64,000 nucleotides of DNA, from positions 1,240,001-1,304,000 of the forward strand of contig NZ_CP053985.1 in assembly GCF_013267355.1 (NCBI RefSeq). The letters run 5' to 3'. This DNA is from Achromobacter pestifer (GTDB taxonomy: Bacteria; Pseudomonadota; Gammaproteobacteria; Burkholderiales; Burkholderiaceae_B). Shown piece by piece: positions 52,400 through 63,953 of this stretch. The notes below the pieces were generated by a model. The model saw only the letters and a program-made list of their open reading frames with translations. It did no database searches and was not told the origin of the DNA. The translations under genes and the position numbers were made by a program. Numbering within the stretch: the first letter of the stretch is position 1; each line of letters opens with the position of its first letter.

Positions 52400-53761
52400 C
52401 TATAGGCTGCCGTACGAATGCAGCCCCGACAGGAACATGTTGACCCCCAGGAAGGCGAAGCTCGTCACGACCAGTCCGGCGAGCGCCCAGTAGGCCGCCA
52501 CCTCTCCCCGCAAGCCCTTGAGCAGCCGCATGTGCAGCCAGGCGGCATAGTTCAGCCACACGATCAGCGCCCAGGTTTCCTTGGGATCCCATTGCCAGTA
52601 TGCGCCCCAGGCGTCGGCCGCCCACAGCGCGCCCAATACCGTGGCCACGGTGAAGAAGGCGAAGCCCAGCGCAATGGCCCGGTACATGATGTCCTCCAGC
52701 ACCTCCAGGGACGGCAGCCGGCGGGCGATGGGCCGACGCAGCGCCAATACCGCGCCGACCGCCATGGCGCCCACGCCGAAATACAACATCCACACGCGAG
52801 AAAACCGCCCTGAGCCGAAGATCATCGGCTCGGCGCATAGCAGCGCGCCCAGCAGGAACACCGGAATCAGGCGCTTGCCCGCGGCGCTCTGCCCGTGCAG
52901 CTTGACCAGGTACGCGAAGCCCACCGCGCCCGCCAGCGAGAACGTGCCGTAGCCGACGAAATTGGCCGGCACGTGCAGCTTCATCCACCAGCTTTGCAGC
53001 GCGGGAACCAGCGGCTGGATCTGATGGGCGCCGCGCGTGAGCGAGTACCAGGACAGGAACACGACCATCGAGGCGACCACCAGCATGACGAAGCCGCCCA
53101 GCGCCCGCGTGGCGTAGCGGGCCTCGTAATAGAGGTAGAACAGCGCCGTGACCAGCGCGAAGAAAACGAACACCTCGTACAGGTTGCTGACCGGAATGTG
53201 TCCTACATCCGGTCCCAGCAAATGCCCTTCGCGCCAGCGCACCAGAAGACCGGTCAGGCCCGCCCATACCCCGCCCCAGGTCAGGACCGTGCCCAGCCAG
53301 GCGATCGCGGGCCTGGCCAGGCCCGCCCAGTAGCAGAGCGTGCCCAGGACGAACAGGCAGCTCATCCAGAGTATGGCCGACTGCGACGACAGCAGGTACT
53401 TGAGCAGGAAGACGCTCTCGGCGCGCCCCAGATCGCCCTGGAGCAGCCCTGCCCCGCCCGCATACAGCCACACCGCCAGCAGCGCACTGGCGCCGCTGGC
53501 CAGGACCAGAGACCGCAAGGGACGCCACAGCCACCCCAGCCACGCCAACGCCGGCACGGCGCCGACCAGCATCGCTTTCTCGTAGCCGTTCAGGAATTGA
53601 CCAAAATCCGCCAGCGCATAGGCGCAGCCGGCAAGGCAGATCAGCAGGAACCCGGCATCGGTCCGGTTCAAACGCCTGCCGGTCCGGGCTGCGGCATTCG
53701 CAACATCCGGCACGGACTGGCGGGAAGTCAGCGGGGCGGGCCCGGCGGCGGTAAGCGGCAT
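52400..53761 (-). CDS. ccsB: Cytochrome c biogenesis protein CcsB/CcsA type
   Basis: A 453-residue polytopic protein with 11-12 predicted membrane segments and the tryptophan-rich WWD-type motif WAADAWGAYWQWDPKETWALI near the C-terminus, plus conserved His residues (MKLHVPANFVGYG, HMRLLKG). It handles heme export and ligation to CXXCH motifs in the system II pathway. A partner ResB-type gene is not in the window. Its promoter holds the shared MocR-type element, linking it to the two or three c-type cytochromes encoded in the nir locus. Confidence 0.9.
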   Translation of the reverse strand: MPLTAAGPAPLTSRQSVPDVANAAARTGRRLNRTDAGFLLICLAGCAYALADFGQFLNGYEKAMLVGAVPALAWLGWLWRPLRSLVLASGASALLAVWLYAGGAGLLQGDLGRAESVFLLKYLLSSQSAILWMSCLFVLGTLCYWAGLARPAIAWLGTVLTWGGVWAGLTGLLVRWREGHLLGPDVGHIPVSNLYEVFVFFALVTALFYLYYEARYATRALGGFVMLVVASMVVFLSWYSLTRGAHQIQPLVPALQSWWMKLHVPANFVGYGTFSLAGAVGFAYLVKLHGQSAAGKRLIPVFLLGALLCAEPMIFGSGRFSRVWMLYFGVGAMAVGAVLALRRPIARRLPSLEVLEDIMYRAIALGFAFFTVATVLGALWAADAWGAYWQWDPKETWALIVWLNYAAWLHMRLLKGLRGEVAAYWALAGLVVTSFAFLGVNMFLSGLHSYGSL

Positions 53762-53822: not shown

Positions 53823-53840
53823 ATTTGTCATAGGACAAAT
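53823..53840. promoter_or_regulatory. Operator copy A, upstream of ccsB
   Basis: ATTTGTC-ATAG-GACAAAT is a perfect 7+4+7 inverted repeat, 62 bases upstream of the ccsB start. It contains CATAGGACAAAT, the same 12-base element found twice in the mocR-nir gap. Confidence 0.65.
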
Positions 53841-53930
53841 TCATTCTAAGTACGACCCAGTAACGCTGCATAGCCACGCCGCCGGCCCTCGCGCCGCGCC
53901 GCCATCCCTACCGGAAACGCCGCAACCGTG

Positions 53931-55457
53931 CTAAATGCCCCCGCAGCGCGCTTCCTCCAGGGACAGGCGGGACGCTGCCCGCCCAGGACAGCTTTCCTGC
54001 AGCTGCGTGCAGGCCGCAAGCACCCGCGCCATGGCCTGGGCGATTTCGCCGGTTTCCAGGCCGGCATAGCCGAACAGCAGATGCCGGGGCTCGGCGCCGT
54101 CGGCCGCGCTGGCGGCGGCCTGGGCCAGCGGGTACAGCCTCACGCCCTGCGCCAGCGCGGCGGCGGCGACCACATCGGCGTCCGGACTGTCCGCCGGCAG
54201 TTCGAAGGCCAGATGCATCCCCGAATTCTGTCCGCTGACCCGGCCGCGTCCGCCCCAGACCTTGCGGATGCCGCGCAGCAGCTCGTCACGCTGCGCCTGA
54301 TAGCGCCGCCGCAGGGTTTGCAGGTGGCGCGCGAAACAGTTCTCGTCGAAGTAGCGGGCCAGCACGGCCTGCGTCAGCCATGGACTGCCGTTGTTGAGCA
54401 ACGCCTTGCGCTCGGTGAAATCGTCGACCAGCGCAGGCGGGCAGACCATGTATCCCAGCCTCAGGCCAGGTCCCAGCGTCTTGGAGAACGTGCCCAGGTA
54501 CGCGACCTGCCGCGGGCTCATCGCCGCCAGCGGCATGGGCAGCACGGATTCGTAGCAAAAGTCGCCGTCGTAGTCGTCCTCGATGATCAGCGCGCCGCTG
54601 CGGCCCGCCCATTCGAGCAGTTGCCGCCGCCTGGACAGGGACATGGCGTGGCCCAGGGGGTACTGGTGCGACGGCGTCACATAGGCCAGCCTGGCCGGCC
54701 CTTCCGGCAGCAGGTCGGTGCGCAGCCCCTCTCCGTCGACCGGGACCGGCGCTTCCTGCGCGCCATGCCGCCGCACCAGATTCCTGAAGCCCGCATAACA
54801 GGGGGACTCGAACACCGCCCGGCCGTGGCGGTCCAGGAAATGCGAGGCGATCAGGCTCAAGGCTTCCTGGCTGCCGGCGGTGATCAGCACCTGTTCCGGC
54901 TCGACCTTCAGCGCCTTGGCCGCCGACAGGTAATCCGCTACCTGCACGCGCAAACCCCACAGGCCGGCCGGCGGCGCGTATTCGGCCATGGCGCGGCCCG
55001 CGTGCCGCAGCAGCTGGTTGGACAGCGTGATGAACTGGCGCAGGGGAAAGGCGTGGACCGAGGGACGGCCGACCTTGAAGTCATAGCGCAGGGGCATGGG
55101 CGCCGGCTGGCCGCAGACGCCGCTGGACAGGGCCTGGCTGACGGCATCGGCGTAGACCGGCGAACGGTCCTGGACAAAATCGGGACAACGCGGATTGATG
55201 ATCAGGCTGCGGTTCAGCGTCACGAAGTAGCCGCGGCTGGGCTTGCTCTGGATCAGGCTGGAATCGATCAACAGCTCATACGCGCCCAGCACGGTGTTCT
55301 TCGATACCTGCAGCAGCGATGACATGCGGTTGATCGCCGGCAGCCGGTCCCCTTCCTGCAGCCGTCCGGCGCGTATCAGCGCCTCGATCTGGTCAGCGAT
55401 CTGCTGCTTGTAGGGTTTTGCATCCAGGCGGGAGAGGGTGAGCGGTAGTGAAAACAT
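53931..55457 (-). CDS. MocR-type regulator (GntR HTH + aminotransferase domain)
   Basis: A 508-residue PLP-binding regulator. GntR winged helix at about 12-80 (QIEALIRAGRLQEGDRLPAINRMSSLLQVSKNTVLGAYELL); aminotransferase-like domain 125-490 with the PLP lysine Lys326 in GTFSKTLGPGLRLGY and IIEDDYDGDF upstream. MocR proteins such as GabR and PdxR sense PLP or amino compounds. It is divergent from the cd1 operon and backs on to ccsB. Its own leader carries one copy of the shared element, so autoregulation is likely. Confidence 0.94.
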   Translation of the reverse strand: MFSLPLTLSRLDAKPYKQQIADQIEALIRAGRLQEGDRLPAINRMSSLLQVSKNTVLGAYELLIDSSLIQSKPSRGYFVTLNRSLIINPRCPDFVQDRSPVYADAVSQALSSGVCGQPAPMPLRYDFKVGRPSVHAFPLRQFITLSNQLLRHAGRAMAEYAPPAGLWGLRVQVADYLSAAKALKVEPEQVLITAGSQEALSLIASHFLDRHGRAVFESPCYAGFRNLVRRHGAQEAPVPVDGEGLRTDLLPEGPARLAYVTPSHQYPLGHAMSLSRRRQLLEWAGRSGALIIEDDYDGDFCYESVLPMPLAAMSPRQVAYLGTFSKTLGPGLRLGYMVCPPALVDDFTERKALLNNGSPWLTQAVLARYFDENCFARHLQTLRRRYQAQRDELLRGIRKVWGGRGRVSGQNSGMHLAFELPADSPDADVVAAAALAQGVRLYPLAQAAASAADGAEPRHLLFGYAGLETGEIAQAMARVLAACTQLQESCPGRAASRLSLEEARCGGI

Positions 55458-55460
55458 GGC

Positions 55461-55479
55461 GGACAACCACAGGACAAAA
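55461..55479. promoter_or_regulatory. Operator copy B, at the mocR start
   Basis: GGACAA is repeated directly with an 11-base step (55461 and 55472), about one helical turn, and the second copy extends to CACAGGACAAAA. It lies only 4-22 bases upstream of the mocR ATG, overlapping its ribosome-binding region. Direct repeats are typical of MocR targets. Confidence 0.6.
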
Positions 55480-55558
55480 GATGGCGCCGGCCTTTCGAAG
55501 CGGCGCGGGCCGGCCGCGCTCCGTTTGCTATCACGGTAGTCCTCCGGCCTTGGCATTG

Positions 55559-55576
55559 TTTTGTCCTATGTCAAAA
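55559..55576. promoter_or_regulatory. Operator copy C, upstream of the cd1 operon
   Basis: TTTTGTCCTATGTCAAAA contains, in reverse complement, CATAGGACAAAA, 116 bases upstream of the cd1-like gene. It is an almost symmetric site (one arm differs by one base from copy A). It could also fit an FNR/DNR-type TTG-N8-CAA box. Confidence 0.6.
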
Positions 55577-55691
55577 AATCGATTGGACCGTAACCATGGC
55601 ACGCGCGGGACCCGTGCCTTATCGGCCCAGGGCCGCGGTGACACAGTGCATGTGCCGCAGTTTCGGCAAGAACCTTACGGGAGAGATCGAC

Positions 55692-57251
55692 ATGCACACC
55701 AAGCTATTGAGCGCGGCCTGGCTGCTCGTCTCGGCCGGCGCCGCCTGGAGTGCGCCGGCCGAGGAGTACCTCAAGGCGAATCAGTTGTTCCAGCAGAACT
55801 GCGCCGTCTGTCATGGCGCCGACCGCGGCGGCTACATCGCGCCGGGCCTGACCAGCGACCGCCTGGTCCAGAGCGAGGCGGCGCTGCGCGGCACCATCAT
55901 GACCGGCATCCCCGACACGCTGATGCCGCCTTTCGTGGGCCGCTTGTCCGACGAGGAGATCCGCTCGCTCGCCCGTCTGATCAAGACCCAGGCGGCGGAC
56001 GATCCGAAATGGGGCCTGGACCAGATCCGCGCCAGCGTGCAGGTGGTGGTCGACGAAGCCACCCTGCCCGCCAAGCCGACCTATGCCATCGACACCGTGT
56101 ACGACCTGATGGTGGTCATGGCGCGCGGGCGCTACGGGCGCGGCGACGCGGGCAACAATGCGCGCACCGTGTTCCTGGACGGCAAGACCAACAAAGTGGT
56201 CGGCGAGATCGCCACGCCGGTGGCGCCGCACATCATGGATTTCAGCCCCGTGGCGGAGCGCTGGGCCTGGCTCAAGAGCGACGACGGCATGGTCTACAAG
56301 ATCGACCTGTATTCGTTGCAGATTGTGCGCCAGGCCAAGGTCGGCCTGACGGGCCCCGGCATCGCCCTGTCCAACGACGGCAAGTGGCTGGCGATCAGCT
56401 CGTTCGTGCCCAAAAGCGTTGCCATCCTGAAGGCGGACACGCTGGAACCAGTCAAGTACATGGACCTGGAGGGCGAGGACCCGGACGGCAAGTTCGTCAA
56501 GTCGGCCGGCGGCCCGGTGATCGGCAGCCGGATCAACAACAAGTTCGCCCTGACGCTGCGCCAGGCGGGCCAGATCTGGATCATTGACCCCGACAAGCCC
56601 GACATGCCCGTGACCAAGCTGGCCAAGGTCGGCCGCATGCTGCATGACACCTTCCTCACGCCCGACGGGCGCTACTCCATGGTGGCGTCCTACGACGACA
56701 ACAAGATCGTCGCGATCGACTTCAAGGAGGACAAGGTGGTGCGCGACATCCCCGCCGGCTGCCAGCCCCACGTCGGCTCGGGCGCGGTGACCGAGGTCAA
56801 CGGCCGCTTCCTGGCGTTCGGCACCAATATCGGCACCTGCGACAAGGGCTCCGTGGTCACGGTGTGGGACACCAAGGACTTTTCCGTGGTCAAGCAGATC
56901 CCCGTGGCGGGAGCCACTGAATCGCCCGCCGCCCATCCGAACGCGCCGTATGTGGCGGTGGACATCGTCGACAAGGACAAGCGCGCAGCCTGGATCCAGC
57001 TGATCGACAAGAACACGCTGGAAGTGGCCAAGACGCTGGACGTGGGCGGGCATGCCTTCTTCCCCGACTACAACCGCACCGGCAACTACCTGTATGTCAG
57101 CTCGGGCTACTGGGGCGACCGCATCAAGATCTACGACAGCAAGACCCTGGAGCTGGTGGCGGAACACAAGATGGAAAGCCCCTCGGGCATCTTCTCCCGC
57201 GCCCGCACCCGCTGGCTGACCATCGGCCTGTCCGAAACGCGCAAATTCTGA
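55692..57251 (+). CDS. Divergent cytochrome cd1-like protein (NirS/NirN family)
   Basis: A 519-residue exported protein. Signal peptide 1-22; a cytochrome c domain with CAVCH at 37-41 and probable axial Met78; then an eight-bladed propeller (about 130-519) of the heme d1 type. Three histidines match known d1-pocket positions: His180, His318 (RMLHDTF) and His360 (QPHVGSG). It lacks the typical NirS ending and instead ends in SPSGIFSRAR, closer to NirF. So it is neither an ordinary NirS nor a clear NirN. It is the first gene of an operon with a small cytochrome c and a CysG-like gene. Reaction unknown: nitrite reduction, dihydro-d1 oxidation or something new. The start at MHTKLL has GGGAGAG upstream. 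Confidence 0.85.
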   Translation: MHTKLLSAAWLLVSAGAAWSAPAEEYLKANQLFQQNCAVCHGADRGGYIAPGLTSDRLVQSEAALRGTIMTGIPDTLMPPFVGRLSDEEIRSLARLIKTQAADDPKWGLDQIRASVQVVVDEATLPAKPTYAIDTVYDLMVVMARGRYGRGDAGNNARTVFLDGKTNKVVGEIATPVAPHIMDFSPVAERWAWLKSDDGMVYKIDLYSLQIVRQAKVGLTGPGIALSNDGKWLAISSFVPKSVAILKADTLEPVKYMDLEGEDPDGKFVKSAGGPVIGSRINNKFALTLRQAGQIWIIDPDKPDMPVTKLAKVGRMLHDTFLTPDGRYSMVASYDDNKIVAIDFKEDKVVRDIPAGCQPHVGSGAVTEVNGRFLAFGTNIGTCDKGSVVTVWDTKDFSVVKQIPVAGATESPAAHPNAPYVAVDIVDKDKRAAWIQLIDKNTLEVAKTLDVGGHAFFPDYNRTGNYLYVSSGYWGDRIKIYDSKTLELVAEHKMESPSGIFSRARTRWLTIGLSETRKF

Positions 57252-57267: not shown

Positions 57268-57615
57268 ATGAAACCGCTATTCCGCATACTCGCTGCGCTG
57301 CTGCTGTCCCAGGCCGCCGCGCACGCGCTGGCCGCCGATGGCCAAGCCGCGCTCATCGCCGGCGGCAATCCCGACACGCTCTCGCCCCACGTTTCCGCCA
57401 TGCTGCCGCTATGCGCGTCCTGCCATGGCGCGGACGGGATCAGCGCCGTCGGCCTATATCCCAATCTTGCAGGGCAGAAAGCTGAATACCTGGTGAAACA
57501 GCTCAATGCCTTCAAAACCCGGGAACGCAACGACCCGGTCATGAGTTCCATGGCCGAGCCCTTGAGCCCCGAAGCCATCCAGGAGCTGGCCCAGTACTTC
57601 TCCAGCCGCAAGTAG
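57268..57615 (+). CDS. Small periplasmic cytochrome c (c553/c4-like)
   Basis: A 115-residue class I cytochrome c: signal peptide ending in HALA, heme site CASCHG, NLAGQKAEYLVKQLNAFKTRERND typical of cytochrome c4/c553 domains, and an axial Met in DPVMSSMAEPLS. It is 16 bases after the cd1-like gene with GAGGAA before its ATG and is the probable electron partner of that protein. Confidence 0.92.
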   Translation: MKPLFRILAALLLSQAAAHALAADGQAALIAGGNPDTLSPHVSAMLPLCASCHGADGISAVGLYPNLAGQKAEYLVKQLNAFKTRERNDPVMSSMAEPLSPEAIQELAQYFSSRK

Positions 57616-57627
57616 GAGGAACCCGCC

Positions 57628-58620
57628 ATGGACGCGCCATCCGCGATGCTGTTCCCGGTGTTCTTCAACCTGGCCGGCCGGCAGGTGGTCGTGGTGGGCG
57701 GCGGGGCCGTGGCCGAGCGCAAGATCAGGCTGCTGCTTGCGGCCGGCGCCGCCATTGCCGTGGCGGCGCCGGCCCTGACGTCCTGGCTGCGGGCGGCCGC
57801 GGACCAGGGCAAGATCCAACATCTGCCCGCCGCGTTCTCGCCGGCCTGCCTGGACGGCGCCTGGCTGGCGGTGGCCGCGACCGATCACGGCGACACGAAC
57901 CAGGCGGTCGCCGCGGCGGCGCTGGCGCGCCGCATTCCCTGCAACGTGGTCGACGATCCCGTACTTTCGACGATACAAGTGCCGGCCATCCTGGACCGTT
58001 CCCCGCTGGTGGTGGCGGTGTCTTCAGGCGGCTGCGCGCCCGTGCTGGCGCGACGCATCCGCGAACGGCTCGAGGCGTTGCTCGACGAGAGCACGGGAGA
58101 TCTGGCAAGGCTCGCGGCGCGCTACCGCAGCCGCATCGTCTCGCGCTTTCGCGACCTGGACGAGCGCCGCGACTTCTACGACTGGATGCTGGACGGCCCG
58201 CTGCCCTCTTTGCTGGCGGCGGGAGACGGCCGGCAGGCCGGTCTGGCGCTCGAAGCCGCGATGCAGGCCGACGCCCCGCCCCGCATGGGCAGCGCGACGA
58301 TACTGGCGGCCGCCGACGGTCCCGCCGATCTGTTGACCCTGCGCGCCTTGCGCATGCTGAACCAGGCCGACCTGGTCGCGCATGTGCCAGCCGTCAATCC
58401 GGCCATCCTGGACAAGGCGAGACGGGACGCGGCGAGGGTCGAGCTGAAAGGCCCCGGTATGCAGCCCGAGCCGGCCGTTGCCGCGGGCGCGGGGCTGGAA
58501 TGGCTGGCCCGGCAGGTACGGGCGGGCCAGCGCGCCGTCCTGCTGTTGGGAGCCGCGCACGATCCGAAGCTGCTGGCGCGGCGCATGGCGGCTTGCGGCG
58601 TGGCGTGCAGCGTGCTGTGA
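57628..58620 (+). CDS. CysG-like precorrin-2 dehydrogenase with a degenerate methyltransferase half
   Basis: A 330-residue protein. Residues 1-215 match the CysG/Met8 dehydrogenase-chelatase module: VVVGGGAVAERK, catalytic Asp109 in CNVVDD (Asp104 in E. coli) and Ser133 in VSSGG (Ser128). Residues 225-330 resemble only the first half of a SUMT domain, but the SAM loop GAGPGD is replaced by AADGPAD and the GGDP motif is lost. It should convert precorrin-2 to sirohydrochlorin and siroheme, the heme d1 precursor, but cannot methylate uroporphyrinogen III. Standard CysG is about 457 residues. AGGAGG precedes the ATG. Confidence 0.85.
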   Translation: MDAPSAMLFPVFFNLAGRQVVVVGGGAVAERKIRLLLAAGAAIAVAAPALTSWLRAAADQGKIQHLPAAFSPACLDGAWLAVAATDHGDTNQAVAAAALARRIPCNVVDDPVLSTIQVPAILDRSPLVVAVSSGGCAPVLARRIRERLEALLDESTGDLARLAARYRSRIVSRFRDLDERRDFYDWMLDGPLPSLLAAGDGRQAGLALEAAMQADAPPRMGSATILAAADGPADLLTLRALRMLNQADLVAHVPAVNPAILDKARRDAARVELKGPGMQPEPAVAAGAGLEWLARQVRAGQRAVLLLGAAHDPKLLARRMAACGVACSVL

Positions 58621-58647: not shown

Positions 58648-60435
58648 TCAGGAACGTCCGTCCTTGGCCGCCTCGCCGGCATTGGCACCCGCCAGCGCCG
58701 CCGCCAGATAAGTCCGGCCCCGCTCGCTGAAAGATAGCGACGCCGCCGCCTGCCTGCCGGCCTCGTCCATCTTGTGCCAGGTCTTCTGCAGCACCGCGAC
58801 GACCTTGTCCGGATAACGGTCGCAGAATTCCTCGTACTGGTGCTCCAGGAACACCAGGCACAGTGCGTTCTCCATGCATTGCACGTCGGCATCGCGCTTG
58901 ATACCCTGCTTGCGCACGATCTTCAGTACCGCCTGTATGGTTTCCTCGTCCTGGCCTGCGCTGGCGAGCAGCCTTGCGGCGATGTCCGCGTGGTGTTCCT
59001 TGAGCGTATTGCGCCATTGCAGATAGCCTGCCCTGCCCGCCGCACAGGCCTCGCGCGGAACCTCCCAGCGGCCGATGTGCTGGCAGCTTGCGGCCAGGCG
59101 CAAGGCGGGGCCGGCCTGCGGGGCCAGCTTCGCCACCCAGTCGTGGAGGAATTGGGCGTACAGCCATTCGCGCGGCTGCATGGCGCCATTCCAGGCGACC
59201 AGATTGGGATCGCGCCGGTTGTAGTCATCGAACAGCTGCAAGGCGCGCTGCAGCGGCGCGTCCTCTCCATTGGCCGGTATGGGCGGGAATTCCATTCGAG
59301 CTCCTGTCTCGTCTTCGTTCAGATAACAGCCGGGATCTTCGGCCCAAAGGTCGCCCGACTGCTTCTGCGCGCGGATGCGGGTGTTGCCGTTGCAGATGTC
59401 CAGGTAAGCGCAGCTGGCGCAACGTCCCTTGACGGGCCGCGGCCGCAGCCGCAACAGCTTGAGCAAGGGCTCGGCGGGATCCGACCAGATTTCCGAGAAG
59501 GGCCGCAGGCGCACGTTTCCCAGAGTGTAGTGCCACCACATGGTGTCGGCGTGGACATTGCCCCGGTTGTCGATGTTGGCAACGTTCATGCCGCTGGCGT
59601 TGCCGCCCCACTGCCGCAGCCTGGCCTCGATATGCGGCGCGCGGTCCGGGAAACGGCGGCGCACCCAATGCAGGAAGAACACGCCATCGGCATCGTTGTT
59701 GCCGGAGGTGAACTCCCGTGGCCTGCCGGCCGCGGCCTGTTCCAGGCAGGTCTCGAAGATCCGCTCCATCGCCGCCCGCGTCATGCGGTGATGGCTGTCC
59801 TCGCCCCGGTTGCGGCCGCCGCGGCCCGCGTAGTTCAGATGCGAAAAGTAAAAACGGTCGACGCTCTCGGTGTCCAGCAGCGCGAGCAGCCCGGGCAGGT
59901 CGCCGGCATTGCCCTGGGTCATGGTGTAGCGGATGCCGACCTTCAGGCCGCGGTCCCGGCACAGCCGGATGCCTTCCAGCGAGGCATCGAATGCCCCCGC
60001 CTCGCCGCGGAAGCGGTCGTGCGTCGCGCCCAGGCCGTCCAGCGAAATGCCCACGTAGTCGAAGCCGCAGCCGGCGATGGATTCGATGTTGCGCCGGTCT
60101 ATCAGGGTGCCGTTGGACGACAGGCCGACGTAAAAGCCCATGGCCTTGGCCCTGCGCGCAATTTCGAAAATGTCGGGCCGCAGCAGCGGTTCGCCGCCAG
60201 ACAGGATCAATGCCCTCACGCCATGGGCATGCAGATCGTCCATGGCTGCGCAGACTTCGGCGTAGTCCAATTCGCCGGCAAAGTCCTTGTCGACCGAGGC
60301 CGAATAGCAATGACGGCAATGCAGGTTGCAGCGCCGGATCAGGTTCCAGATCACCACAGGCCCGGCCGGCCTCCGGCGGGGCGCCAGCGGCGTGGGCCGC
60401 AGCAATTCGGAGACGAAGGCGGAAATGCGGAACAT
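58648..60435 (-). CDS. nirJ: Heme d1 radical SAM protein NirJ fused to a DUF4202-like domain
   Basis: A 595-residue protein. Residues 1-385 are NirJ: CNLHCRHC with Cys36, Cys40 and Cys43 for the radical SAM cluster, LSGGEPLLRPD, and a second cluster region with Cys339, Cys342, Cys348 and Cys370. NirJ removes propionate side chains from the didecarboxysiroheme intermediate. Residues 393-582 are an added helical domain resembling DUF4202 (LFDDYNRRDPN, CQHIGRW, YLQWRNTLKEHH, CLVFLEHQYEEF). Usual NirJ is about 390 residues. The start at MFRISAF was chosen because the family begins there. It converges with the CysG-like gene. Confidence 0.9.
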   Translation of the reverse strand: MFRISAFVSELLRPTPLAPRRRPAGPVVIWNLIRRCNLHCRHCYSASVDKDFAGELDYAEVCAAMDDLHAHGVRALILSGGEPLLRPDIFEIARRAKAMGFYVGLSSNGTLIDRRNIESIAGCGFDYVGISLDGLGATHDRFRGEAGAFDASLEGIRLCRDRGLKVGIRYTMTQGNAGDLPGLLALLDTESVDRFYFSHLNYAGRGGRNRGEDSHHRMTRAAMERIFETCLEQAAAGRPREFTSGNNDADGVFFLHWVRRRFPDRAPHIEARLRQWGGNASGMNVANIDNRGNVHADTMWWHYTLGNVRLRPFSEIWSDPAEPLLKLLRLRPRPVKGRCASCAYLDICNGNTRIRAQKQSGDLWAEDPGCYLNEDETGARMEFPPIPANGEDAPLQRALQLFDDYNRRDPNLVAWNGAMQPREWLYAQFLHDWVAKLAPQAGPALRLAASCQHIGRWEVPREACAAGRAGYLQWRNTLKEHHADIAARLLASAGQDEETIQAVLKIVRKQGIKRDADVQCMENALCLVFLEHQYEEFCDRYPDKVVAVLQKTWHKMDEAGRQAAASLSFSERGRTYLAAALAGANAGEAAKDGRS

Positions 60436-60448
60436 TCGGGTTTCCTCG

Positions 60449-60967
60449 CTATGCGGCCGGACCCTGGCCATCTCTCAGGCGCAAGCCGGTCTTTTTCAGG
60501 ATGGCCGAGGAAAACAGCGCCTCCTGCGCCCGCAGGGCGCCCGGAAAACGAGCCGCCAAGGCCTCGGCGACTTCGGCGATGCGCGCCAGCAACGCCGCGC
60601 GGTCAGTGCCGTGCAGCATGGCGAAGAGGTTGTAGCGCCACTGTGGCGGGCGCCGGGGACGCCGATAGCAATGGCTCACGTCCGCGAGCTGGCCCAGCCA
60701 GGCGCCCACGGCATCGGCCTGTCCATCGTCCACGTCCCAGACCGTCATGCCGTTGGCCACGAATCCCAGCGCATAGTGGTTGGGCACCGCGCCGATGCGC
60801 CGGATGACGCCGCGCGCAAGCATGTCGCGCAAATGCGCCATCACCTCGGCTTCGGCGACGCCCAGCCGCTCGGCCACGGCCCGGTATGGGTCCCGCCGGA
60901 TCGGCAGCCCGTCCTGCGTGGCGCGCACCAGTGACAGCTCGAACGGAGTCAGGCCGACGGCATCCAT
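60449..60967 (-). CDS. nirH: Siroheme decarboxylase subunit NirH-like (AsnC/Lrp fold)
   Basis: A 172-residue protein with an N-terminal winged helix and an Lrp-type RAM domain. The motif HCYRRPRRPPQWRYNLFAMLHG is shared with the C-terminal half of the NirDL fusion protein. These proteins form complexes that decarboxylate siroheme to 12,18-didecarboxysiroheme, the substrate of NirJ. One base separates it from the preceding gene. Assignment to NirH rather than NirL is by position and size. Confidence 0.88.
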   Translation of the reverse strand: MDAVGLTPFELSLVRATQDGLPIRRDPYRAVAERLGVAEAEVMAHLRDMLARGVIRRIGAVPNHYALGFVANGMTVWDVDDGQADAVGAWLGQLADVSHCYRRPRRPPQWRYNLFAMLHGTDRAALLARIAEVAEALAARFPGALRAQEALFSSAILKKTGLRLRDGQGPAA

Positions 60968-60968
60968 C

Positions 60969-61448
60969 TCAGACCTCCAGCTTCATTTCAAGGAAGTACT
61001 CGCGCTCTTTCGGAAACGCCAGCACCGGCAAGCCCGTCTCCTGTTCGATGGCCCGCAGGCAGGCGACGATGTCGGCGGGGTCGGCCGCCGCCAGCACGAA
61101 CCACATGTTCAGGGCGTGCTCGCGGCGGTAGTTGTGCGCCACCTCGATCCGGCGGTTGACCAGTGCCACCACCCGCTCCCATTGCGTCCGCGGCACGGCC
61201 ATCGCCGCCAGGCAGTACGCTCCGCCAGCGCGCTCGATCTGGAACAGCGGGCCGAAACGGCTCAGCGCGCCGCATTGGCGCAAGCGGGCCACGCGCGCGA
61301 TCACGGCGTCTTCGTCCAGCCCCAGCGCCTGCGCGACGTCCGCGAACGGACGCGGGCTGATGGGAAAGCCGCCCTGCAGGCGATTGATCAGCGCGCGGTC
61401 GGCAGCGTCCAGCGGCGCGCCCGCGGCAGGGTCCTTGGGCCTATCCAT
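60969..61448 (-). CDS. nirG: Siroheme decarboxylase subunit NirG-like (AsnC/Lrp fold)
   Basis: A 159-residue protein with a winged helix (about 15-65) and RAM domain. It carries HNYRREHALNMWFVLAAADP, the same motif seen in the N-terminal half of the NirDL fusion, so it belongs to the D/G type. Its ATG lies inside the end of nirDL (8-base overlap), and it ends one base before nirH. It works with NirDL and NirH in siroheme decarboxylation. Confidence 0.9.
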   Translation of the reverse strand: MDRPKDPAAGAPLDAADRALINRLQGGFPISPRPFADVAQALGLDEDAVIARVARLRQCGALSRFGPLFQIERAGGAYCLAAMAVPRTQWERVVALVNRRIEVAHNYRREHALNMWFVLAAADPADIVACLRAIEQETGLPVLAFPKEREYFLEMKLEV

Positions 61449-62439
61449 GCGCCACCTCTTCGGGCATGAGCCTCGCGCCGCGCTGCTTGAAGCACCTGGT
61501 CGAAAACAGCACCGCATGCGGCCAGGCATCCAGCCCGAGCCGGCCGGCGATGGCATCGCGCTGCGCCCGCACCGCTTCCCGCTCTTTGCCGTGGATCATG
61601 CAGAAGAGGTTGTAGGGCCACTGCGGCAGGCTGCGCGCGCGCCGGTAGCAGAGCGTGACGCCGGGCTCGGCCCCCAGTTGCTCCCCCAGCGCATCCACCC
61701 GCGCGTCATCCACGTTCCAGACGCACATCGCATTGGCGCGATAACCAAGCTGGCGGTGCCTCAGCACCACGCCGAAGCGGCGGAACAGGCCTGCCTGCAG
61801 CCATCGCTCCAGCAAGCACAGCGCCTGGTCCTCATCCAGCCCGGCAAGAAGCCCCAGCCGGCGATAAGGTTGCGCGCAGAGGTCCAGCCCGTCCTGCACG
61901 GCGTGGAGCAAGGCTTCTTGCGCGCTGCCGGCGGGCGGCAGCGCCGCCGGCTTGCCGCGGGGCTGCGGCGGCGCGCGGCGTTGCGGCGAGCTCAGGCTGA
62001 ATCCCAGATCGATGTGGTACTCGGCCTGCATGGGCAAGGCCAGCGGCTCGCAGCCGGTATCCTGCCCGATCCGCGCCAGCAAGCGCGCGAGCGCGCCGGG
62101 CGTGCGGCAGGCGGCCACGAACCACAGGTTCAGCGCATGCTCGCGCTCGTAGTTGTGATTGACTTGCGCCAGACCGCTGACGTGGGCGGCGACCTGCTCC
62201 AGACGGACGGCCGGCACATGCATGCCCACCAGCGCGCTGGCGAAGCACGACTGATGCAGCACCGGGCCGATCCGGCTCACCACGCCCTCGCGCTGCCAAC
62301 GGCGAAAGCGCGCCATCACCGCGCCTTCGTCCAGGCCGGCGCGCTCGCCCACCAAGGCGTAGGGCCGCGGCACCAGCGGAAAACTCCGCTGCCAGCCGTC
62401 GAGCAGAAGCAAATCGGAATCGGACAGTTCAAAAGCCAA
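61441..62439 (-). CDS. nirD: Fused siroheme decarboxylase NirDL
   Basis: A 332-residue fusion of two AsnC-like units: a D-type half (about 1-150, HNYEREHALNLWFVAACRTP) and an L-type half (about 175-332, LCYRRARSLPQWPYNLFCMIHG), joined by a Pro-rich linker. The halves are paralogs of NirG and NirH in this operon. The start is TTG, supported by AGGAG eight bases upstream, within the last codons of nirF. Other heme d1 clusters keep D and L either split or fused; fusion is known from Paracoccus. Confidence 0.88.
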   Translation of the reverse strand: MAFELSDSDLLLLDGWQRSFPLVPRPYALVGERAGLDEGAVMARFRRWQREGVVSRIGPVLHQSCFASALVGMHVPAVRLEQVAAHVSGLAQVNHNYEREHALNLWFVAACRTPGALARLLARIGQDTGCEPLALPMQAEYHIDLGFSLSSPQRRAPPQPRGKPAALPPAGSAQEALLHAVQDGLDLCAQPYRRLGLLAGLDEDQALCLLERWLQAGLFRRFGVVLRHRQLGYRANAMCVWNVDDARVDALGEQLGAEPGVTLCYRRARSLPQWPYNLFCMIHGKEREAVRAQRDAIAGRLGLDAWPHAVLFSTRCFKQRGARLMPEEVAHG

Positions 62440-63598
62440 TCCGGCCGCTCCTGTTCGTGAAGAAAATGCCGCTGGGCTGGGAGATGTCCAGCGTGGCGCC
62501 GCGTTGCAGTGTCCGGGTGTCGTACACCAGCACCCGGTCATCGTCGCGCGCAGACAGCCACACCGCCTCGCCGCGCGGCGTGAACTCCATGTGCAGCACG
62601 CCGCGGCCGGGCGCCAGCGTCCGGACCACGGCCAGGGTTTCGGTGTCGATGACCTGTACCTGGCCGTTGTCGGGCACCGCGAAGTTGACCCAGACGCGGC
62701 GGCCATCGGGCTGTGCCATGACGAACACCGGTTGGCCCAGCGTGGCGATGCGGCCGGTTTCCTGCCACGTGGAGGTGTCCACCACCAGCACCTCATGCCT
62801 GCCGATGGCCGGCAGGAACAGGCGTCCGCCCGCCGCGCTCCAGCCTCGCAGATGAGGCATCTTGTAGACCGGCAGCGCTTGTTCGCCGCGCCCATAGCCC
62901 TGCAGGATCTTGCGCACGCCCGCCTCCGGATGCCACAGGTCCATCATGGCCAGCGCATCCTCGCCGAACAGTCCGGCGATGTAGTAGCGGCCATCCGGCG
63001 TGACCAGCGCGTCGTAGGGCTGGCGGCCGGCGTCATAACGCTGCGTGACCGGCCGGGCGGGGTCCGACAGATCCGTGATCCAGATCTCGCCCGCGTCGAA
63101 CAGCGCGTAGGCGAACTTCTGTCCGGGCAGGTCCGCCAGGCCGACCACCTTGGAACGCTTGCCGGGCGCATACTCGGCGGGCACTTCGCTGATCTGGCGC
63201 AAGGTCGCGGCGTCGAAGACCTTGATCCCGCCAGGCGCGTAGTTCTGCACCACGATCAGCCGCCCGTCCTGCGAGATGGCGCCGCCGATCGCATTGCCGG
63301 ACTGGATGATGCGGCGGTCCACGCGCCCCCGCAGCAGATCGACCTTGGTCAGCCCGCCGTCGCGGCCGAAGACGTAGCCATGGCGGCCGTCGCGGGAATA
63401 GGCGATGTGCGCATGGGAAAGGTCGCCCAGTCCTTCGACCCGCGCCAGGCGGGTCTGTCCGCTGGTTTCGACGATGGAGACGGCGCCGTCGGCGCGCTCG
63501 ATCACCATGCCAAGGTCGTTGGTGCCGCGCGGGTCGGTGGCCGCGGCACAACCGGCCAGCGCGATGGCGGCCAGGACGAGCAGGAAACGCAGTTTCAT
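62429..63598 (-). CDS. nirF: Heme d1 biosynthesis protein NirF (lipoprotein)
   Basis: A 389-residue d1-type beta propeller without cytochrome c. A lipobox (LAGC) marks it as a membrane-anchored periplasmic lipoprotein. LSHAHIAYSRDGRHGYVFGRDGGL, VYKMPHLRGW and the end SQPSGIFFTN are typical of NirF, which binds late heme d1 intermediates. It starts 8 bases after nirC and overlaps the nirDL start by 11 bases. Confidence 0.93.
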   Translation of the reverse strand: MKLRFLLVLAAIALAGCAAATDPRGTNDLGMVIERADGAVSIVETSGQTRLARVEGLGDLSHAHIAYSRDGRHGYVFGRDGGLTKVDLLRGRVDRRIIQSGNAIGGAISQDGRLIVVQNYAPGGIKVFDAATLRQISEVPAEYAPGKRSKVVGLADLPGQKFAYALFDAGEIWITDLSDPARPVTQRYDAGRQPYDALVTPDGRYYIAGLFGEDALAMMDLWHPEAGVRKILQGYGRGEQALPVYKMPHLRGWSAAGGRLFLPAIGRHEVLVVDTSTWQETGRIATLGQPVFVMAQPDGRRVWVNFAVPDNGQVQVIDTETLAVVRTLAPGRGVLHMEFTPRGEAVWLSARDDDRVLVYDTRTLQRGATLDISQPSGIFFTNRSGRIGF

Positions 63599-63605
63599 GA
63601 GCCTT

Positions 63606-63953
63606 CTATTCCTCTGGAAAGCCCTCGAGCAGGCGCGCCGCGATCCAGGCGGCCTCGTCGGGCGCAAGCATGCCCTGCCACCCAGGCATGGCGGTCGCGG
63701 GCAGGCCGCGCAGAATCACCTGTTCGAGATAGGCCGGCGGCTTGCCGGCAAGCGCTTGCGGCGTCAGCGCCGGCCCCAGTCCTCCAGTCAGGCGCAGCCC
63801 ATGGCAGGAGCCGCAATCCTGGCGCACCAGATGGATGAGCCGCGGCGGGTCGACGGAGCCGATATCCGGCGGCGCCTGCGCTTGGCCGGCCGCCGCACCC
63901 CACCCTGTACAACACGCCAACATCAGGCATATCAGGCCGCGACCGGGGCGCAT
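63606..63953 (-). CDS. nirC: Cytochrome c NirC-like
   Basis: A 115-residue periplasmic cytochrome c: signal peptide to about residue 26, heme motif CGSCHG, Gly/Leu-rich LTGGLGPALTPQAL and axial Met in LPATAMPGW. Order nirC-nirF-nirDL matches known nir operons. NirC can reduce the cd1 enzyme or assist heme d1 maturation. Confidence 0.88.
   Translation of the reverse strand: MRPGRGLICLMLACCTGWGAAAGQAQAPPDIGSVDPPRLIHLVRQDCGSCHGLRLTGGLGPALTPQALAGKPPAYLEQVILRGLPATAMPGWQGMLAPDEAAWIAARLLEGFPEE

Follow-up and report, generated by a model that had tools for sequence, protein, structure and literature searches.

Predicted operators of the PLP-sensing repressor PtsJ at two promoters of a heme d1 gene cluster in Achromobacter

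The closest described counterpart of the system considered here is PtsJ of Salmonella, which represses pdxK and itself and whose repression is enhanced by PLP, according to the available part of the source (PMC6071262). Other MocR-family regulators offer partial parallels. MpaR of Pseudomonas aeruginosa controls adjacent respiratory genes by way of a short palindrome that occurs in three promoters, but as far as the accessible part of that paper goes its motif is ATCTGAT, it acts by activation and its signal is cyanide (PMC10790758), whereas the locus described below has another motif and two MocR regulators. The PdxR, PdxW and PdxQ regulons bring together PLP enzymes and proteins of COG325 (the YggS family), with cytochromes in some cases, and the main text on them, in the portion available, does not contain the words “denitrification,” “heme” or “PtsJ” (PMC5320631). 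In denitrifiers, the available part of another report describes nir promoters controlled by DNR/NnrR via a dyad similar in size to those reported here, although with half-sites that differ from ours and without a link to PLP genes (PMC1274295). No study joining MocR, GntR or PtsJ with nirS, heme d1, denitrification or YggS was among the matches listed, where two papers name MocR only in citing DnfR.

The window, by which we mean the whole 64-kb stretch of DNA analysed, carries near one end a cytochrome cd1-type gene, a second ccsB, a mocR gene and a set of heme d1 synthesis genes. The features on which the argument turns are as follows.

52400..53761, minus strand: ccsB2, a second c-type cytochrome biogenesis ccsB (TIGR03144, 248.6 bits)
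53825..53838, no strand: copy A, dyad TTGTCATAGGACAA, between mocR and ccsB2, overlapping the 12-mer at 53829-53840; predicted PtsJ operator
53843..53848, minus strand: -10-like hexamer TAGAAT, 4 bp upstream of dyad A in the ccsB2 sense, kept in 5/5 Achromobacter loci; putative promoter element
53931..55457, minus strand: cluster mocR, with a GntR wHTH and an aminotransferase-like domain (PF00392, PF00155; NF052282 PdxR, 384.7 bits, cut-off 320)
55468..55479, plus strand: copy B, half-box CACAGGACAAAA, adjoining the mocR start; unsupported as an operator
55561..55574, no strand: copy C, dyad TTGTCCTATGTCAA, in the mocR-cd1 gap, overlapping the 12-mer at 55559-55570 (minus); predicted PtsJ operator
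55586..55620, plus strand: direct repeat GACCGTAACCAT-N12-ACCCGTGCCTT, upstream of cd1; candidate operator of the cluster MocR
55692..57251, plus strand: cytochrome cd1-type protein (PF02239; PDB 6rtd, 2.7e-45; NirS 1bl9, 4.4e-27)
57268..57615, plus strand: small c-type cytochrome (PF00034), next after cd1; a homologue follows cd1 in the relatives' loci
57628..58620, plus strand: CysG-like siroheme synthase N-terminal domain protein (TIGR01470)
58648..63953, minus strand: heme d1 synthesis genes (TIGR04051, 590.5 bits, and others), among them siroheme-decarboxylase type genes (nirD/L/G/H kind)
58648-60471, minus strand: nirJ fused to DUF4202, part of the heme d1 synthesis genes
62429-63667, minus strand: nirF-like, named by position and fold
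63606-63953, minus strand: small cytochrome c, nirC-like, named by position and fold

A search of the genome for Cytochrom_D1 returned two proteins, cd1 and the NirF-like one, and no canonical NirS. The cd1 protein matches NirN (6rtd) at 158 bits and NirS at 98 bits; on these comparisons it is closer to NirN than to NirS and close to neither; NirS is not its closest solved relative. In the alignment with NirS, the cd1 protein retains histidines H180, H318 and H360 at what we take to be the positions of the NirS d1 ligand and catalytic histidine pair; at the position of H318, NirN has Asp. Judged from its sequence, the cd1 protein could be an active, unrecognised nitrite reductase.

Homologues of cd1 with at least 80% identity were found in 12 of 249 other genomes of the family searched (3 Achromobacter and 9 Alcaligenes), and a fifth Achromobacter genome with the cluster (G251) was found through ccsB; a plasmid scan for cd1 at E 1e-60 returned none. 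The first-pass annotation had named ccsB as a target gene. It is a ccsB gene, but a second, cluster-specific copy, 70% identical to the other ccsB at C2:2770955; a second ccsB occurs in 5 of 43 Achromobacter genomes, all five of them with the cluster. This cd1 gene is present in nine Alcaligenes genomes (L041-L049), although one A. faecalis strain has been reported to be without a NirS-type gene (PMC11160463, available part). NirJ matches in the Alcaligenes loci end near residue 388-419, and from these alignments the NirJ-DUF4202 fusion may be limited to Achromobacter.

The 12-mer CAYAGGACAAAW occurs exactly three times in the window, at 53829-53840 (plus), 55468-55479 (plus) and 55559-55570 (minus), as the first-pass annotation had it. 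Allowing at most one mismatch, 100 dinucleotide shuffles of the window averaged 0.29 matches and none of the 100 reached three, and the three window copies are real and beyond chance. The copies differ in kind: A and C form dyads, and B is a half-box. Copy A forms a perfect 7+4+7 dyad (ATTTGTC-ATAG-GACAAAT), a second GGACAA lies 11 bp from copy B, and TTG-N8-CAA is fitted by A and C, not by B; the first-pass description of these details agrees with the sequence throughout.

Across the whole genome (7.18 Mb) there are five exact copies of the 12-mer versus one for a reversed-pattern control. The two beyond the window lie upstream of hisC2 in the ptsJ locus (C2:3496939) and within a predicted coding sequence (C2:6990056). 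Searches of the window genome with TTGWCNNNNGWCAA gave 17 sites versus 6 for the control; among 15 loci read, 8 sites fell within a predicted ORF and 3 were A, C and the yggS site. The loose pattern TTGNCNTANGNCAA gave no signal (6 versus 9 for the control). The 14-mer of copy A is identical in 5/5 Achromobacter cluster loci, where the flanking sequence has diverged, and copy C is also present in 5/5, as the variant dyad TTGTCCTAGGTCAA in L109 (A. denitrificans). Copy B is retained in 4/5 and lost in L109, which retains A and the variant C. In relatives the last base of copy C is G, as is that of copy B in one relative, so the exact 12-mer is not preserved there; its core is. No conserved -10 was found beside copy C in relatives.

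We scored the window with two matrices trained on sites elsewhere. The first spans 22 bp and comes from 44 sites (34 distinct) at ptsJ loci only, none from the cd1 cluster. Over the 64 kb on both strands it ranked copy A first (32.2 bits) and copy C second (30.0), ahead of a next site at 13.0, in a test that is not fully independent of the 12-mer, since the training sites were chosen by patterns shaped on it. Among 200 first-order shuffles of the window the maximum was 26.1 bits and the 95% point 16.0. A second matrix, built from 22 distinct sites taken from genomes without the cd1 cluster, gave 31.6 bits for A, 28.8 for C and 15.5 for the next site. Copy B scored as background (1.65 bits; 4.15 bits with the matrix of cluster-free genomes). 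In 20 ptsJ loci (299 kb) the site-picking patterns matched 44 times; 52 other Achromobacter stretches (247 kb) gave a single match, and positions 1-52000 of the window gave none. A motif-blind alignment of 12 yggS leaders produced one long invariant block, CCTATGACAA, directly behind a -10-like stretch; a TGATAATATT-like stretch precedes the box in these leaders. On the strength of the matrix scores and the motif-blind alignment, copies A and C belong with the ptsJ/yggS sites, and copy B falls outside this type. The autoregulation of mocR through copy B is unsupported because B scores as background.

The strict form of the box, TTGTCMTAKGWCAA, is present in 17 of the 43 Achromobacter genomes searched. 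Twelve of the 17 are without a second ccsB, the marker of the cd1 cluster; a direct search for cd1 covered 8 of the 12, and cluster absence in G250-G263 was deduced from the single ccsB (G251 excepted, which has the cluster). Eleven of these 12 genomes, and all five cluster genomes, carry the box upstream of yggS. Each of the 11 yggS loci fetched from other genomes (14-18 kb stretches) has a MocR gene 72-95% identical to one in the window genome, ptsJ, and several have further boxes upstream of ptsJ, a PLP decarboxylase and hisC2. The window genome encodes PtsJ at C2:3494689-3495984, 2.2 Mb from the cd1 cluster, and the protein is identified by the curated equivalog NF012025 (699.5 bits, cut-off 573). 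Box-like sites in its ptsJ locus lie at ptsJ (C2:3494674), hisC2 (C2:3496939) and yggS (C2:3500317).

Box and ptsJ occur together. Of the 38 among the 43 Achromobacter genomes for which ptsJ status was determined, 16 have both, 1 has ptsJ alone, 1 has the box alone and 20 have neither (Fisher 1.2e-8, for genomes that are related and not independent); the five left out (G242, G255, G257, G258 and G260) are all box-negative. Part of the count is biased, since in 10 of the 17 genomes with ptsJ the region inspected was one surrounding a match to the box. In the genome with ptsJ alone (G263), the variant TTGGCATAGGACAA adjoins ptsJ and the variant ATGTCATAGGACAA precedes the decarboxylase gene, and in the genome with the box alone (G192) the box is at an unrelated gene.

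Two side observations concern other genes with a box. hisC2 (G000:C2:3497004-3498083, L050:8005-9087), which encodes a second histidinol-phosphate aminotransferase and has a box of its own, occurs in 6 of 43 Achromobacter genomes, namely the five cluster genomes and G250. A gene of G259 that we named catalase-like by eye is preceded, at about 40 bp, by the box TTGACCTATGACAA (L200:6491-6504), itself behind an AT-rich -10-like stretch; the PtsJ regulon may thus include another heme enzyme.

Outside Achromobacter, a genome from another family of the class (G921) carries the box twice in its yggS-ptsJ gap, as CACAGGACAA and CATAGGACAAAA, once with the exact 12-mer and once with CACAGGACAAG. A search of 369 genomes of the class for the PtsJ family at E 1e-110 gave only three matches, including the window genome's own, so the family is too rare there for a wide footprint. 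The other two are G921, with the box, and G776 (below the cut-off), which has none of the patterns upstream of its gene. E. coli genomes searched with the ptsJ DNA of G921 gave no match. Alcaligenes has a ptsJ homologue (46-49% identity) in 7/7 genomes tested, and the three ptsJ leaders read there (G001, G136 and G180) all carry TGTCATAGGTCAAAATG over the ptsJ start.

We consider it likely, from these sequence comparisons, that PtsJ, a PLP-sensing MocR-family repressor, has its operators at copies A and C, and that the ccsB2 and mocR-cd1 promoters have been drawn into its regulon. The predicted target of PtsJ is the near-palindrome TTTGTCMTAKGWCAAA, which overlaps the core promoter or adjoins it. 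The older regulon would be PLP-related, comprising yggS (the PLP carrier), ptsJ, a PLP decarboxylase of the lysine/arginine type and hisC2, and in the few Achromobacter with the heme d1 cluster the ccsB2 and mocR-cd1 promoters would then have been captured into it. By analogy with Salmonella, plentiful PLP would let PtsJ hold the ccsB2 and cd1 promoters down, and scarce PLP would release them. We infer that PtsJ is the binder, that it represses and that PLP modulates it; a repressor role fits because the predicted operators lie at or beside core promoters (TAGAAT at A, the -10-like stretch in the yggS leaders). The first-pass annotation had proposed that the element belongs to a MocR-type regulator, and the presence of the box at ptsJ and PLP genes, together with its co-occurrence with ptsJ, bears this out. 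Its small regulon under a PLP-dependent regulator survives in part: a MocR-family operator at A and C is supported, but the likelier binder is the paralogue PtsJ, and B is unsupported as a site.

A regulator nearer at hand is the neighbouring MocR, which, as the first-pass annotation suggested, might bind all three 12-mers and so control ccsB2, itself and cd1. It is the nearest regulator, and the 12-mers flank its gene on both sides. Its linkage to cd1 extends over four groups of genera of the Betaproteobacteria: mocR lies beside cd1 in 12/12 loci with a cd1 homologue of at least 80% identity (Achromobacter 3, Alcaligenes 9), Cupriavidus/Ralstonia have a three-gene cd1-cytochrome-mocR island in 6/6 loci, and in Pseudothauera mocR occurs with cd1, with more cd1 and mocR paralogues in the same stretch. 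MocR is a conserved partner of the cd1 gene in these groups. At two cd1 homologues of 50% identity no mocR match was found in the 16 kb fetched. In Pseudothauera nasutitermitis two close cd1 genes, at 80% and 43%, share one stretch (L105:4353-12604) with a pair of mocR genes, at 59% and 36%. MocR proteins may use both direct and inverted repeats, according to the available part of PMC5320631, and the cluster MocR could have converged on the PtsJ box.

We nonetheless regard the neighbouring MocR as an unlikely owner of the 12-mers. The box stands at yggS/ptsJ loci of genomes that have no cluster mocR; it is absent from the cd1 promoters of Cupriavidus/Ralstonia and Pseudothauera, despite a similar MocR wHTH across genera; the mocR-cd1 gap of Alcaligenes, again despite a similar wHTH, has only an FNR-like box; and copy B, the site at its own gene, is at background and lost in L109. 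The first-pass choice of binder, including control of its own gene, is therefore not upheld, since the box follows ptsJ instead and B scores as background.

The cluster MocR is probably a dedicated regulator of cd1 that would act elsewhere, with the direct repeat at 55586-55620 as the likeliest site. Achromobacter, Alcaligenes and Cupriavidus/Ralstonia have a direct repeat of this kind in their cd1 promoters, about 100 bp ahead of the start codon, and by sequence it is the better candidate than the 12-mer for the operator of the cluster MocR. A matrix from the Cupriavidus and Alcaligenes cd1 promoters, trained on 14 of 15 promoters, placed 55586-55620 as the top site of the window at 18.6, a test that alone is weak for the window genome because 1 of 15 shuffles scored higher (18.8). 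The repeat in L109 is stronger (29.4), and the repeat also fits in L112, which lay outside the training set. It was not found in Pseudothauera, upstream of the Cupriavidus/Ralstonia mocR genes, or at the two cd1 homologues without mocR. The same repeat upstream of ccsB2 (CCATCCCT...CCGTGCT, 24-bp period) was considered and set aside, as it lies outside the 12 top matches of the cross-genus matrix. A viral-contig scan with the cluster MocR found no relative. The Cupriavidus/Ralstonia cd1 leaders (L106, L108, L111 and L113) also share TGGCACATTGRWYGCR about 50-55 bp before cd1, which we take to resemble a sigma-54 promoter.

Copies A and C might alternatively be boxes of the FNR/ANR/DNR type, switching genes on without oxygen or with nitric oxide, a competing reading already named in the first-pass annotation. 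Both fit TTG-N8-CAA, FNR-type sites are in excess in the genome (TTGAYNNNNRTCAA, 35 versus 6 for the reversed pattern), and TTGAG-N5-TCAA occurs in the mocR-cd1 gap of 8/9 Alcaligenes loci. DNR half-sites, however, take the form TTGAT-N4-ATCAA in the available part of PMC1274295. Of the two TTGAY-N4-RTCAA half-sites, A matches none and C matches one: A has T, not A, in both (TTGTC...GACAA), and C has it in one. The inner bases of A and C are conserved, and the same box stands at PLP genes and follows ptsJ. We therefore judge the FNR/DNR reading unlikely. The Alcaligenes TTGAG-N5-TCAA (L042-L049) lies nearer mocR than cd1, and an FNR/NnrR-type protein perhaps controls mocR in that genus.

That another regulator owns the box, whether an AraC, a LysR or a further MocR of the yggS locus or one unlinked to it, is very improbable. 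The window genome and 5/11 other loci do have an AraC gene next to yggS, and a further MocR paralogue, 31-32% identical to the cluster MocR, is found close to yggS in 3/11 loci (L192, L193 and L195) and in the window genome (L097), but AraC is missing from 6/11 boxed loci (L189, L190, L191, L194, L195 and L197) and also from L220 and L221, and ptsJ, the only one of the queries ptsJ, cluster mocR, AraC and LysR to be found in all 11 other Achromobacter yggS loci fetched, is the only constant regulator among those queried.

PtsJ, our preferred binder of A and C, resembles its Salmonella counterpart in belonging to the same curated family, in having targets in PLP metabolism and a box at its own gene, and in an operator position over or beside the core promoter that fits repression. 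It differs in being linked here to yggS, a PLP decarboxylase and hisC2, and in its predicted reach to a heme d1 cluster 2.2 Mb away (PMC6071262 and PMC12172467, in the parts available). The Alcaligenes genomes have both a ptsJ homologue and the cd1 cluster, and no PtsJ box at cd1; the predicted link between PtsJ and cd1 is thus limited to Achromobacter. Nothing in the sequence explains why a d1-heme cluster should come under the control of PLP.

We hold it evenly balanced whether two MocR regulators, the dedicated cluster MocR and PtsJ, converge on one heme d1 protein, so that vitamin B6 gates a d1-heme enzyme that is neither NirS nor NirN. The linkage across genera names a MocR regulator as a conserved partner of an unstudied cd1 protein, and the boxes provide a concrete predicted PtsJ operator and regulon outside Salmonella. 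If the assignment to PtsJ is true, control by a vitamin B6 repressor would extend to respiratory heme d1 genes.
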